Shown in pieces: positions 9,660-17,258 of a DNA stretch of 64,000 nt. A program made the translations under genes and the position numbers. The stretch is from Candidatus Saccharimonadota bacterium (GTDB taxonomy: Bacteria > Patescibacteriota > Saccharimonadia > Saccharimonadales > UBA4665): NCBI GenBank assembly GCA_028286345.1, contig JAQBRT010000001.1, positions 1 to 64,000 of the forward strand, read 5' to 3'. Each line of letters opens with the position of its first letter. Positions within the stretch are counted from its first letter, which is position 1. Under the pieces are notes generated by a model. The model saw only the letters and a list, made by a program, of their open reading frames with translations, ran no database searches and was not told the DNA's origin.

Positions 9660-12566
9660 TTAAGTTGGGCTAACAAACTGGCCGTCAGCATCAATTGCGA
9701 TGTCACCCTCAACAGCTGGCGCTGGCGCGGGCGTTGTAGCGCGTGGAATTGCCGGAGCTTTGTCAGCATCGAGCTGCTGCTTAAGCTCGGCAGCAATCTT
9801 ATCAACTTCACTGGCATCAATAACATCACTAGAAATGTTCTTGGGCGCGGCGTTTTGGTCTGGTAATGGCACGCTTGGTGGTGGCGTAAACGGTGCTGGC
9901 TGAGTTACTACGGGAGCTGGCGCCGGTGCTGGTGGCAAAGCCGTAGCTGCCGGCTGGACGCTTGGCGTTGGCAGGCCTTGCTTACGCTTATTCAGCCAAT
10001 CATCCAGGAAAGACCCAGGTTGGGCCGGTTTTGGTGCCTGAGGGCCTCCAAATGCGCCCTGAGGGGCAGCTGGGACGGGTGCGATGGCAGCAAACGGCGA
10101 AGCGGCTGGCGCAGCTGGCTTAACGTCTTCCTTGGTTGTAATGCGGGCAAAGACCTCTTTCTCAACCGCTGCCTTTGGCCGGCCATACTTGGCAGCACTC
10201 AGCTGCTTGAGGGCGGCCCCAAGCTGAAGGTTTGGCGTGCCCAAAGACGGCAAGGTGGCCATACTAAACGGCTGCGTTGGCACGCCACCAATCAGTGTCC
10301 GGACAATAGTATTAAAGTTTGGCACACGCAGCAGGTCGTCGCCATCAAAGATCGGCTGGAAGTATTTACCAAGCGACTCAACGTCGTTCTGGCCAATACG
10401 GAAACTTACGATCGTGCCCATATTACCAAAGACAGCGTCGCGGATTTCTGGTGTTAGCTGGGTTGTAAACTGGTTAGCTACAATCAGGTTAAGGTGATAC
10501 TTTCGGGCCTCGGACATGATGGTTGCAAACGAATCCGTTGAGAAGTTCTGGAACTCATCCACGTACAGGCTAAAGTCCACGCGGTCGTCTTCCGGAATGT
10601 TACTACGGCTCATGGCTGCGGCCTGGAACTTCATTACAAAAATCATACCGAGCAACTTGGAGTTCAACTCCCCTGTCCTACCTTTACTGAGGTTTACCAG
10701 CAGGATTTTCTTGTTATCCATGATGTCTCGCAGGTCAAAGGCCGACTTGGTCTGACCGATAATATTGCGCATCATTTCGTTACTCAAAAACGCACCAAAC
10801 TTACTTACAAACCAACTGACAACTTCACCAAACTCATTGGACCGCTGCGACTGCGGCATTTCTTTTTGCCAGAACTCTAGAACGTTTAAGTCAGTTACAT
10901 GCTCCAGCTTTTGCTGGACGTACTTAGGGTCGCGGAACAACTTTGGGATGTCCACAAATGTGCCGCCGCCCGGGTCGGCCATGATAGTCAAAGCCGCGTT
11001 ACGGAACAAGTGTTCGTAGCGCGGACCCATAATACCCTGGTGCTGCGGGTCGTACAGTTTATAGAGCATATTCAGGGCTTCCTGGATCAAAAAGTCTTTC
11101 TGGTCCGGCGTATTAAACTCAAATAAGTTGAGTCCCATCGGGTAGTCCGTCTCGGCCGGACTAAAGTAAATCACGTCCTCGGTGCGCTCTTTTGGCACCA
11201 TGGCCAGCAGTTTCTCAACGACGTCACCGTGTGGATCAACAAAGGCAAAACCATTGCCACTAAGCATGTCCTGCAAGGCCAGGTTCTCGAGGAAAGTAGA
11301 CTTACCAGTACCAGTCTGCCCCACCACATACATGTGCCGCTGGCGGTCACCAAGCCCCAAACGGATTGCCTTTTTAGCGCCGCGGAAGATGTTGTAGCCC
11401 AACAGTAAGCCCTCTTCAGGGACATTGCGCGGACCATCAACCTGCTTGGAATCCTGGCGCGTTAGCTGTGAGGTTGGGATATTGTGCTGGTCCGGGAAGT
11501 GGAACAGCGTTGCCAGTTCCACCGAGTTCAAGATGTTTTTGTTATAGCTCTGCGGGAAAAAGCGCATATTATAAGCTGTTACAAAACTATCGATATCTTT
11601 GGCCGGCGTGTATTTAAAGCCGTTCTTGCCAGGTGCGTCATATAACGAGAAACTAGCCACCACATTACCAAGCACAGCTTGGGCGCGCTGACTAATATTA
11701 GATGACACTACAACGCGGATCATCACCTCAAAACCAGGATGGCGTGTCTTATCATCGATAGCGTCCAAGATAGCCTGGTCGAGGTTAGATAGCTCGGGTT
11801 TCTTAGGGTCATCGCCCTTTCCGGCCTCTGGTGGTTTTACAAAAGCCACCGCCAAGTTCTTAGCCATGCCACCGGCGCTGGCCTTCTTATCGTTACCTTT
11901 ACGCTTGCGGTTGGCGATCTCTGTGGCCCGCTTGCGCCAACTAGGGTTAGCCGGACGCATCAGGAACTGGATTGCTGCCCCGTCCTCTTTACCAAGCGTC
12001 GACAAGGCATTAAGCAAGGCCTGCATGCCGTCACGCTTTAAGTCCTGGTAAGTCGCAATTGGGTAGGCAAACGGCTCTTTAAGCGATAATTCGCCGCCCA
12101 TTGTCCCTGTTAAACGGCCAACTTGGCTAAAGATATTGTGGTCAGCCACTTCTTCTAAACGGGCTGTTGGATAGGCGCTCACCACTGCCTGTTTAACTGT
12201 TTCCAGCAAGGCTAGCGGCACTGCCACATAAAAATAAACAAAGCCTTGGCTGCCAACAATTTCAAAGCCAAAGTGGCGCTGCCCATAAAATGTGCTCTTT
12301 AAACCTTTCTGGAGGGTGCTGGCAACAATATTGTAGATAATCTGCGCCTTGCTAATGGTTTCGTCCGTGATATCACGGGCATCCCTACCACCCACATCCA
12401 AGTCGTCACTAGGCGGCGGCAAGTGGATTAGCAGCGGGACAATTTTAAGCCCACGCTCATAGTTTTTTTGCTCACGAAAATTCTTCCGCGCCTGGAAAAA
12501 AATGATCGGCGCCGCCACTATTATGAAGAGAAATATGATTCCAATGAACGTAATAAGTGTTGCCAT
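9660..12566 (-). CDS. TraG/VirD4-like membrane ATPase
   Basis: The 968-residue protein has an N-terminal membrane helix (about 5-24) and a long region before the motor domain. Walker A is GQTGTGKST at about 416-424, and a FAFVDPHGD motif follows. Walker B is YVDEFQNF (about 667-674), with the nearby ARKYHLNLIVANQF typical of HerA/TraG hexameric pumps. The last 170 residues are Pro/Ala-rich and probably disordered. VirD4-type ATPases couple DNA or protein substrates to type IV secretion. Here it forms a two-gene unit with the small protein upstream, without visible VirB genes, so its substrate is unknown. It converges with the LPXTG operon, with 12 bp between stops. Confidence 0.8.
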   Translation of the reverse strand: MATLITFIGIIFLFIIVAAPIIFFQARKNFREQKNYERGLKIVPLLIHLPPPSDDLDVGGRDARDITDETISKAQIIYNIVASTLQKGLKSTFYGQRHFGFEIVGSQGFVYFYVAVPLALLETVKQAVVSAYPTARLEEVADHNIFSQVGRLTGTMGGELSLKEPFAYPIATYQDLKRDGMQALLNALSTLGKEDGAAIQFLMRPANPSWRKRATEIANRKRKGNDKKASAGGMAKNLAVAFVKPPEAGKGDDPKKPELSNLDQAILDAIDDKTRHPGFEVMIRVVVSSNISQRAQAVLGNVVASFSLYDAPGKNGFKYTPAKDIDSFVTAYNMRFFPQSYNKNILNSVELATLFHFPDQHNIPTSQLTRQDSKQVDGPRNVPEEGLLLGYNIFRGAKKAIRLGLGDRQRHMYVVGQTGTGKSTFLENLALQDMLSGNGFAFVDPHGDVVEKLLAMVPKERTEDVIYFSPAETDYPMGLNLFEFNTPDQKDFLIQEALNMLYKLYDPQHQGIMGPRYEHLFRNAALTIMADPGGGTFVDIPKLFRDPKYVQQKLEHVTDLNVLEFWQKEMPQSQRSNEFGEVVSWFVSKFGAFLSNEMMRNIIGQTKSAFDLRDIMDNKKILLVNLSKGRTGELNSKLLGMIFVMKFQAAAMSRSNIPEDDRVDFSLYVDEFQNFSTDSFATIMSEARKYHLNLIVANQFTTQLTPEIRDAVFGNMGTIVSFRIGQNDVESLGKYFQPIFDGDDLLRVPNFNTIVRTLIGGVPTQPFSMATLPSLGTPNLQLGAALKQLSAAKYGRPKAAVEKEVFARITTKEDVKPAAPAASPFAAIAPVPAAPQGAFGGPQAPKPAQPGSFLDDWLNKRKQGLPTPSVQPAATALPPAPAPAPVVTQPAPFTPPPSVPLPDQNAAPKNISSDVIDASEVDKIAAELKQQLDADKAPAIPRATTPAPAPAVEGDIAIDADGQFVSPT

Positions 12567-12571
12567 TATTA

Positions 12572-12991
12572 CTACTCGCCCAATTTAATTTCTTTACTAT
12601 ACCGCTGCTGAAGATAGTCAGCCCTAAGCCCGTTGAGCTGTTTACTCTGTTGGTGAGGATCTTCTCTAGTGCGTTCCACGATCTGCTTAGCTTTACTGAC
12701 CCATTCTTTTTCAATTAAATCAGTATCATGTGTTGTAACTGGAACAGCAGTTGTCGTTGTAGAAGGCACAATAGGCGAAACGGCTGGTGCTATGGGTGCC
12801 GGACCTTTCTGTGGCATTGGTAGTGGCATGCCTTGCGGCACTACAGCACCCGGGTTTGGGGCAAATTCAGCAGGTGCCGGAGCGGCTTCTGGCCGGTTTT
12901 GGGCAGCCTCGTTTGACGGCACGGGCGACAATTGCTCGGGCACGACGGGCGGTAAATTAAAACCAGCTTGAGGGTTATTTTGCGGTTGCAT
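12572..12991 (-). CDS. Small partner protein of the TraG-like ATPase
   Basis: The 139-residue product is Pro/Ala-rich for 90 residues, then has a compact charged C-terminus (WVSKAKQIVERTREDP followed by LRADYLQQRY). From memory, proteins with this ending are common next to type IV-like ATPases in Patescibacteria. It ends 5 nt before the ATPase start. A TATAAT box lies 9 nt before the ATG, so the mRNA is probably leaderless. The function is unknown; an adaptor role is only suggested by position. Confidence 0.7.
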   Translation of the reverse strand: MQPQNNPQAGFNLPPVVPEQLSPVPSNEAAQNRPEAAPAPAEFAPNPGAVVPQGMPLPMPQKGPAPIAPAVSPIVPSTTTTAVPVTTHDTDLIEKEWVSKAKQIVERTREDPHQQSKQLNGLRADYLQQRYSKEIKLGE

Positions 12992-13057: not shown

Positions 13058-13414
13058 TTACGCTTGGCGCGCTTTAGAGTAGAACAGATAGACATATAAA
13101 AGCACCGCCAGAGGCACTAAAACGACTACATCGCGCAAACTCAGCTCACCCACTGAAGATAGTGCCAAACAGAGGCCGCCTGCCCCGCTAAGCATGCCCA
13201 CAAACCTGTTAGCCGGCGCTTGCGGCACCCCATATACGCTCAGTACCCGGGCAAATAGCCTTAAAAGTGCGAATAACGTGACCACCAGGAGTAAAAATCC
13301 AATTATAAGGAAGAGGGAGCTGACTTTGTCAGGGTCTGTGCCGCCAAAAAAGCAGGCATCGATCAATAATATTGCTGGTAGGTACCAAATATGCGGTTTT
13401 TTAAGGTTTTTCAA
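13058..13414 (-). CDS. Small polytopic membrane protein
   Basis: The 118-residue product has three to four hydrophobic helices (about 10-25, 32-55, 68-85, 92-110) with basic ends (MKNLKK, SKARQA). No family was recognised. The reading frame offers only a TTG start at 13414. A nearby ATG (about 13424) is out of frame and no good Shine-Dalgarno site is seen, so the start is uncertain. A structured RNA region lies immediately upstream and could be its leader. Confidence 0.5.
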   Translation of the reverse strand: MKNLKKPHIWYLPAILLIDACFFGGTDPDKVSSLFLIIGFLLLVVTLFALLRLFARVLSVYGVPQAPANRFVGMLSGAGGLCLALSSVGELSLRDVVVLVPLAVLLYVYLFYSKARQA

Positions 13415-13442
13415 GGCATTTCATGGTTTTAAAGTGTTAAAC

Positions 13443-13684
13443 GCCGGCATGCAGAAGTTCTGGTCATGCCGGCAATCGATAAAAAGGTGCCGGGACAGCA
13501 AATCCGCTCAAAAAAATAAACTATTGTAGCGCTTGCTGTCCATCGGCGGTGACTGACCGCTCTAAATGCCTTTAGGGCAAAATAGAGCGCCGACGGATTC
13601 CTCCGTAATGTTTTGTAAGCTTCCGCCCCCGCGAGGGCTTCATACTTTTAAGTTGTGACTAACTTTTTGTTTTGGTAACTTACC
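13443..13684 (-). ncRNA. Unidentified structured RNA or long leader
   Basis: On the minus strand, a consensus promoter is followed by about 240 nt dense in complementary segments. TCCGTCGGCG pairs with CGCCGATGGA (10 bp, one G-U) and encloses the hairpin CTCTA/TAGAG with inner TGCC/GGCA. GGACAGCAA pairs with TTGCTGTCC, CCGGCA with TGCCGG, and GCCGGCATG with CATGCCGGC at the end (13443-13473). No start codon with a Shine-Dalgarno site opens a sizeable frame. The T-run after the last hairpin is weak (GTTTAAC), so it may instead be the leader of the membrane protein gene at 13058-13414. No RNA family was matched; tmRNA and SRP hallmarks are absent. Confidence 0.5.
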
Positions 13685-13689
13685 CTCAA

Positions 13690-13718
13690 ATCCTAGCACG
13701 GATAAGCCTTTTTGTCAA
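13690..13718 (-). promoter_or_regulatory. Promoter of the structured RNA
   Basis: TTGACA (13713-13718) and TAGGAT (13690-13695), read on the minus strand, are 17 bp apart. Confidence 0.7.
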
Positions 13719-13882
13719 TCCGCTTGTGCTTTCTGGACATATTTTGGCTGCAATCATATCGCACCTCATTTAGTGTCCAGAGCTTACTCCTTACAGACTC
13801 GTTTAACTCTGATAGCTTAAGCGTAATCAACAGAGGTCATAAGTTATGCACAGCTTTCTATGAAATTTAACCATAAAAGTTA

Positions 13883-13917: not shown

Positions 13918-14080
13918 AGCACTGAACAAATTAAGTGCTCAAAAACAAAAACGATCAATAGAAACAACGGCTTCTCGCAAGCCGTTGTTCCATGAAAAAA
14001 CCGCAACAAAAACAAGTAAACAAACATCTTAATTATTTCTTAAAACACCTTGTCTATCCCGAGACAAGGTGTTTTACTTT
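13918..14080 (+). ncRNA. Three-hairpin RNA ending in a terminator, upstream of comM
   Basis: From the predicted start, the RNA folds into AGCACT/AGTGCT (13918-13939), an 11-bp perfect hairpin AACAACGGCTT/AAGCCGTTGTT (13963-13989) and the terminator at 14042-14080. The segments between are A-rich and unstructured. A 32-codon frame from ATG 13992 runs through the terminator and is not convincing. The RNA is either a free small RNA of about 160 nt or an attenuator leader for comM, which has no promoter of its own visible after the terminator. Confidence 0.55.
14042..14080 (+). terminator. Intrinsic terminator or attenuator before comM
   Basis: AAAACACCTTGTC pairs with GACAAGGTGTTTT over 13 bp, followed by ACTTT. 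The start of comM lies 25 nt further on. Confidence 0.8.
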
Positions 14081-16904: not shown

Positions 16905-17258
16905 TTGGTTAGACTACCTGTAAGCCGGGTTCTGTCGAGACTAGTCATCTATCTAGGCCCACTGTTGCCAGCGGGCTCGAGCGGTTTTATGATGAATCTT
17001 TAGCGGGACACTTCGAGCTTTAGGCTCAAAAAATCCATCTCCTTGCAGCAGGCAGGGTTTACCTCTTCCCTACGTCACCGTAGGCAACTGTGAGCTCTTA
17101 CCTCACTCGTTTCACCCTTACCGGTAAACCGGCGGTATCGTTTCTGTGGCACTTTCCCTAAGGTTTCCCTCGGTCGCCGTTAGCGACTGCCATTCCCTGT
17201 GCTGCCCGGACTTTCCTCGTACGAAAAACGCACGCGACCAGTCAGTAATCTAACCAAA
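16905..17258 (-). ncRNA. rnpB: RNase P RNA
   Basis: The minus strand carries the 5' block GAGGAAAGTCCGGGC and the core GCACAGGGAATGGC (17189-17220). GAGGGAAACCTTAGGGAAAG follows, and near the 3' end comes GACAGAACCCGGCTTACAGG. The P1 ends pair, GGTTAGATTAC with GTAGTCTAACC. This is the bacterial A-type layout of the ribozyme that cuts tRNA 5' leaders. A TATACT box (17263-17268) precedes it and a terminator follows. Confidence 0.95.

Follow-up and report, generated by a model that had tools for sequence, protein, structure and literature searches.

The minus strand of a Candidatus Saccharimonadota genome carries a compact, strongly folding segment just upstream of a small membrane-protein gene. 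This raises the question of whether the segment is a leader that controls that gene or an RNA gene in its own right. The window analyzed here is a 64,000-nucleotide stretch of contig JAQBRT010000001.1. Folding of minus-strand positions 13725–13430 gave a minimum free energy of −104.7 kcal/mol (z = −4.9), a value reached by none of 200 shuffled sequences. A consensus scan located TTGACA and, after 17 nt, a −10 box (TAGGAT) with an extended TG, so that the earlier note's description of a strongly folding RNA behind a consensus promoter held on both counts. The same promoter occupies the corresponding position in nearly all aligned relatives and is also found in family f26. From its position, transcription would start near 13683. 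The extent of the RNA was set by the promoter at the 5′ end and by a U-run at the 3′ end; the motif GGC(A/T)CC is kept after hairpin P4, and many relatives have a U-run immediately 3′ of this hairpin. The features of the locus are as follows.

13481–13684, minus strand: predicted noncoding RNA, about 205 nt here, single copy; based on the folding z-score of −4.9, relatives and covariation
13690–13718, minus strand: promoter, TTGACA (13718–13713), 17-nt spacing, extended −10 TGCTAGGAT; from the consensus scan
13615–13683, minus strand: helix P1, GTAAGT (13683–13678) with GCTTAC (13620–13615), enclosing an A-rich stretch and a variable hairpin
13558–13589, minus strand: hairpin P3, CGCTCTA (13589–13583) with TAGAGCG (13564–13558)
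13552–13558, minus strand: linker GGTCAGT, usually GGTCAGTC; the first G also takes part in closing P3
13489–13547, minus strand: hairpin P4, with compensatory changes and the same architecture in a second CPR class
13481–13488, minus strand: probable 3′ end, ACC plus TTTTT (13485–13481) after P4
13443–13473, minus strand: terminator-like spacer hairpin, GCCGGCATG/CATGCCGGC, whose U-tract is weak; seen in the sequence

No open reading frame spans the RNA on its own strand, in line with the earlier finding that no coding frame accounts for the region. A mechanically called frame of 111 aa on the opposite strand (13194–13529, plus) overlaps part of it. Since the helices show compensatory changes, an RNA is favored over this protein.

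The order of the elements is shared across the aligned relatives. P1 is followed by a variable region that extends to P3, and its loop holds a conserved A-rich stretch, AAAACAAAAA (13673–13664). Alternative P1 pairs occur in relatives (GUAAGU/ACUUAC; AUGGUU/AGCCAU in locus L045; CGAUC/GAUCG in L046) and in f26 (GCUUUU/AAAAGC and GGUUU/AAACC); these were identified by inspection and lie outside the formal covariation count. The base of the P3 helix is almost invariant, with covariation in the upper pairs. The linker columns are invariant in 28 sequences, and the linker recurs in most f26 sequences; in the second CPR class, L191 has it as GGTCAGT. The 5′ side of P4 is formed by GCCG (13547–13544), GGACAGCAAG (13541–13532) and CGCT (13531–13528), and the 3′ side by AGCG (13508–13505), a GA bulge, TTTGCTGTCC (13502–13493) and CGGC (13492–13489), on either side of an AU-rich apical loop (13527–13509).

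Compensatory changes in relatives, on which the earlier note had staked its case, were found. Changes on both sides affected 18 of 29 pairs in the alignment of 28 sequences. The count was 17 of 29 in a set of 62, of which 61 were collected with a pattern fixing only the invariant segments and whose alignment, being fitted to the model, is biased towards it. For P4 and its base, the corresponding figures were 12/18 and 11/18. In both alignments none of 500 shuffles scored as high, and slid pairing partners scored far lower. Sequence comparison thereby establishes minus-strand positions 13684–13481 as a structured RNA selected for its fold in Saccharibacteria and in one further CPR class.

The individual helices named earlier fared differently. 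A 9-bp helix, GGACAGCAA/TTGCTGTCC (13541–13533/13501–13493), is real and forms the core of the conserved P4. A 10-bp helix, TCCGTCGGCG/CGCCGATGGA, can form in the window, but only one of 89 sequences has it; it also competes with GCCG/CGGC at the base of P4, a pairing that compensatory changes maintain. It was rejected as part of the conserved fold. The terminal 9-bp GC-rich hairpin exists (13473–13443) but lies outside the conserved RNA, which ends at 13485–13481.

BLAST (E < 1e-5) returned clear relatives in about 30 of 60 related genomes. Scanning of the genome collection with the pattern gave 61 contigs with one match each; the groups named are Saccharibacteria, Saccharimonas, Saccharimonadales and Patescibacteria, the other contigs being labelled only "bacterium". 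Of 380 genomes of the phylum, a covariance model matched 13, and 11 of these belong to the same class as the window. The two matches outside that class are probably due to chance, because one (L050) covers the model only partially and the other (L052) falls within a long open frame. In f26 the RNA is larger, at about 400 nt or more; it retains the promoter and all the named elements (P1 and the A-rich loop, P3, the linker, P4) and adds a further paired domain. Within this P2 domain, several sequences contain ACUGACCG, which could form pairs with the conserved CGGUCAGU.

The second CPR class, represented by nine genomes of families f54 and f64, has a related RNA that measures about 270–440 nt. 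It shares the A-rich stretch and the P4 architecture with the Saccharibacteria RNA, and a U-tract comes directly after P4 in most of these sequences. The Saccharibacteria model recognized three of these sequences (E = 1e-6 to 1.4e-5 in a small search), and kinship of the others rests on shared motifs and layout. On this sequence evidence, the RNA is kept in nearly all Saccharibacteria examined, beside one small membrane-protein gene. The space around it varies greatly, with spacers of about 250–570 nt in L007/L103 and L029.

The genes downstream of the RNA in the window are the following.

13058–13414, minus strand: companion gene for a 118-aa basic membrane protein, TTG start; an orthologue is the next gene in 60/60 loci
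12572–12991, minus strand: second cluster gene, 139 aa, kept downstream, no Pfam match
9660–12566, minus strand: third gene, VirD4/TraD/HerA-like ATPase, 968 aa, from Pfam profile matches

The earlier note had tied the RNA to the membrane protein at 13058–13414, and the wider comparison bears this out. The same small membrane protein is encoded by the next gene downstream on the same strand in all 60 testable loci, those with room downstream (one contig ends too early). In three of the 60 the membrane-protein frame opens upstream. AlphaFold predicts four helices (mean pLDDT 86), and the protein is typically rich in Lys and Arg (8–15 residues, versus 2–5 Asp and Glu). A Pfam search with it gave no significant match. 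Comparison of the predicted fold with the PDB gave a best E of 2.6 with Foldseek and a best Z of 8.6, to unrelated helical bundles, with VIA-align; this lack of an informative match does not show that the fold is new.

Downstream of the membrane gene, Saccharibacteria usually encode a protein of about 139 aa and then the VirD4/TraD-like ATPase. The window's 968-aa ATPase matches TraD (7.4e-10), DUF87 (5.6e-5) and TraG-D_C (0.0029), and a VirD4-like ATPase is present in 41/41 f26 genomes. Most f26 genomes have at least two VirD4-like paralogues. Within 1.5 kb downstream of the membrane gene, no VirD4-like gene was found in the second class, although most genomes there retain the order of RNA and membrane gene. 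The membrane protein is therefore the most constant companion of the RNA. Upstream, comM was found in 39/61. Between comM and the RNA promoter in the window, minus-strand positions 13961–14074 hold two strong consecutive hairpins, AACACCTTGTC/GACAAGGTGTT and AACAACGGCTT/AAGCCGTTGTT, with a short T-rich run after each. Other CPR groups, f42 among them, have homologues of the membrane protein, but upstream of these no such RNA was recognized, although a divergent one may have been missed. In L172, L173 and L174, from such groups, the homologue directly follows a coding gene with no RNA between them; the sequence of this gene resembles that of a diadenylate cyclase.

The earlier note had left a choice between a riboswitch-like leader and a separate noncoding RNA. 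As a cis-acting riboswitch or attenuator, the RNA would control the membrane-gene cluster through termination at P4 or at a hairpin following it. Leaders of this type resemble the locus in combining a structured RNA upstream of one conserved gene with terminator-like hairpins, and the RNA's position directly upstream of the same gene in 60/60 loci is as a leader would have it. Of 37 loci belonging neither to f26 nor to the second class, 17 have a terminator-like hairpin separating the RNA from the gene, versus 2.25 expected from shuffles; the scan did not count the window's own spacer hairpin (13473–13443) among the clear cases. The spacer is very short in L002, L009, L010 and L017 and holds no clear gene promoter (L009 has a possible −10), so read-through from the RNA promoter is probable there. 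Read-through into the membrane gene is thus possible in some lineages close to the window.

Two arrangements argue against a leader. The membrane genes of f26 and the second class have a separate promoter of the leaderless type, with a −10 box immediately preceding the ATG. A clear promoter of this kind is absent from most loci near the window and was rejected as a universal feature. In G145 and G159, other genes part the RNA from the membrane gene by about 1.5 kb. The intervening 1.5 kb in G145 adjoins an apparently intact RNA and is flanked by a 43-nt, 91% repeat of the RNA 3′ end. This insert (L213:543-2069) has direct repeats and a 379-aa frame without a Pfam family. It resembles an element that has integrated at the 3′ terminus of the RNA gene, a behavior known of elements at tRNA and tmRNA genes. 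Two genes, one a NUDIX hydrolase, lie between RNA and membrane gene in G159. In f26, the second class, G145 and G159, the RNA thus does not sit within the 5′ leader of the gene that it would control. Because the promoter and P4 persist after separation from the gene, the RNA does not appear to be its leader. Inspection by eye likewise noticed no clear antiterminator or sequestered ribosome-binding site. The terminator-like spacer hairpins of the 17 loci, and the U-tract that comes after P4 in most second-class sequences, also speak for an RNA independent of the gene. We consider a leader unlikely, and an independent noncoding RNA gene very probable.

As an RNA gene it could still be a known RNA in disguise. 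The earlier note had assigned it to no known family, and this stands: at gathering score, Rfam gave no match to the RNA in the window or f26 loci, and a relaxed search of the window region up to E = 10 returned nothing relevant and nothing to OLE or housekeeping RNAs. For the second-class loci nothing relevant emerged either, the only matches being to tmRNA at the far 5′ end of two loci. The openly licensed PubMed Central literature yielded no conserved structured RNA class of CPR bacteria. No 8-mer of GGUCAGUC is complementary to the 5′ part of 16S rRNA.

A divergent copy of a housekeeping RNA (SRP RNA, 6S RNA, tmRNA or RNase P RNA) would be suggested mainly by gaps in the genome. The SRP RNA models RF00169 and RF01854 and the 6S RNA model RF00013 found no match in the window's own genome, and the small SRP RNA model reached its cut-off in none of 40 Saccharibacteria relatives. 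Yet a search of the own genome for the Ffh M domain (PF02978), the part of Ffh to which SRP RNA binds, also came back empty, so SRP RNA was rejected as an identity; this genome and its relatives may lack the signal recognition particle or have a very divergent one. The RNA resembles 6S RNA in being free-standing, about 200 nt long and driven by its own promoter, but it forms two separate hairpins (P3 and P4) where 6S RNA has a single long rod interrupted by a central bubble. Together with the missing RF00013 match, this led us to reject 6S RNA. tmRNA and RNase P RNA are encoded elsewhere (G000:C2:346992-347377 and 16905–17253, respectively) and were likewise rejected. With no Rfam match to such families up to E = 10, a disguised housekeeping RNA is extremely improbable. 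Like the raiA motif RNA/ModT (PMC11706538), the RNA represents a class of conserved, structured noncoding RNAs in bacteria that are not riboswitches, but the raiA motif occurs in other phyla and no Rfam match links it to this locus.

The closest likeness is to OLE RNA of Bacillota. The gene immediately downstream of OLE RNA encodes OapA, a membrane protein with four predicted helices and a basic cytoplasmic face, which binds OLE RNA and brings it to the membrane (PMC12265935). In both systems a structured RNA lies directly upstream of a gene for a small, basic four-helix membrane protein (60/60 loci here), and the immediate downstream neighbor is the commonest partner. OLE RNA is about 600 nt long, unlike the RNA described here (about 205 nt, or about 400 nt or more in f26), and belongs to another phylum. 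The absence of an OLE covariance match and the difference in length led us to reject membership of the OLE family; Rfam gave no sequence or covariance match, and the likeness is one of layout, drawn from sequence and prediction.

By analogy with OLE RNA, we tentatively propose, at a little under even odds of being right, that the RNA is the RNA part of a membrane-associated ribonucleoprotein with the neighboring protein. The RNA and the protein are strictly adjacent in two classes, which suggests that they act together, and retention of the RNA at the membrane is the likely form of this partnership, given the likeness to OLE RNA and OapA. The four-helix, Lys/Arg-rich protein would tether the RNA to the membrane's inner face. 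Conserved unpaired parts would bind this protein or further partners, the candidates being the A-rich loop, GGUCAGU, the GA bulge of P4 and its AU-rich loop. A conserved neighborhood alone does not prove physical interaction, and synteny is generally high in such small genomes. The occurrence of the membrane protein in other CPR groups, with no such RNA found upstream there, counts against the pairing.

The adjacency could instead be inherited gene order, with the RNA acting in trans as a regulatory or housekeeping RNA that binds, for example, RNA polymerase, ribosomes or mRNAs. The strong conserved promoter, the independence of the gene, its conserved unpaired segments and the failure to find 6S RNA in the own genome would all suit such a role, as would the partial conservation of upstream order (comM, 39/61). 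The downstream gene is, however, kept far more strictly than the upstream one, and in another class as well, which points to a functional link, and the architecture is not that of 6S RNA. A trans-acting RNA is thus possible but rather less probable. The best overall explanation in our view, with an even chance of being correct, is an independent RNA gene whose product joins the neighboring protein in a membrane ribonucleoprotein.

The VirD4-like gene in the cluster suggests a more specific version of this proposal, in which the RNA and its membrane protein would form an unrelated, CPR-specific counterpart of the OLE system in epibiotic bacteria, possibly VirD4-coupled in Saccharibacteria, and the RNA would serve as an adaptor or even a substrate of type IV secretion acting on the host. 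The secretion link is speculation, and we regard this version as quite doubtful. The coupling-protein gene of Southlakia epibionticum was not essential for epibiotic growth (PMC12102498).

Rfam contains no family for this RNA, which is previously undescribed. Saccharibacteria, which parasitize other bacteria, have very small genomes. The RNA is likely to be important to them, since it is kept in nearly all of these small genomes with its fold preserved and the same membrane gene adjoining. Should the RNA and the membrane protein act together, they would make up a second instance of the OLE/OapA arrangement, unrelated to the first, which would suggest that membrane RNA–protein particles are a more general bacterial solution.
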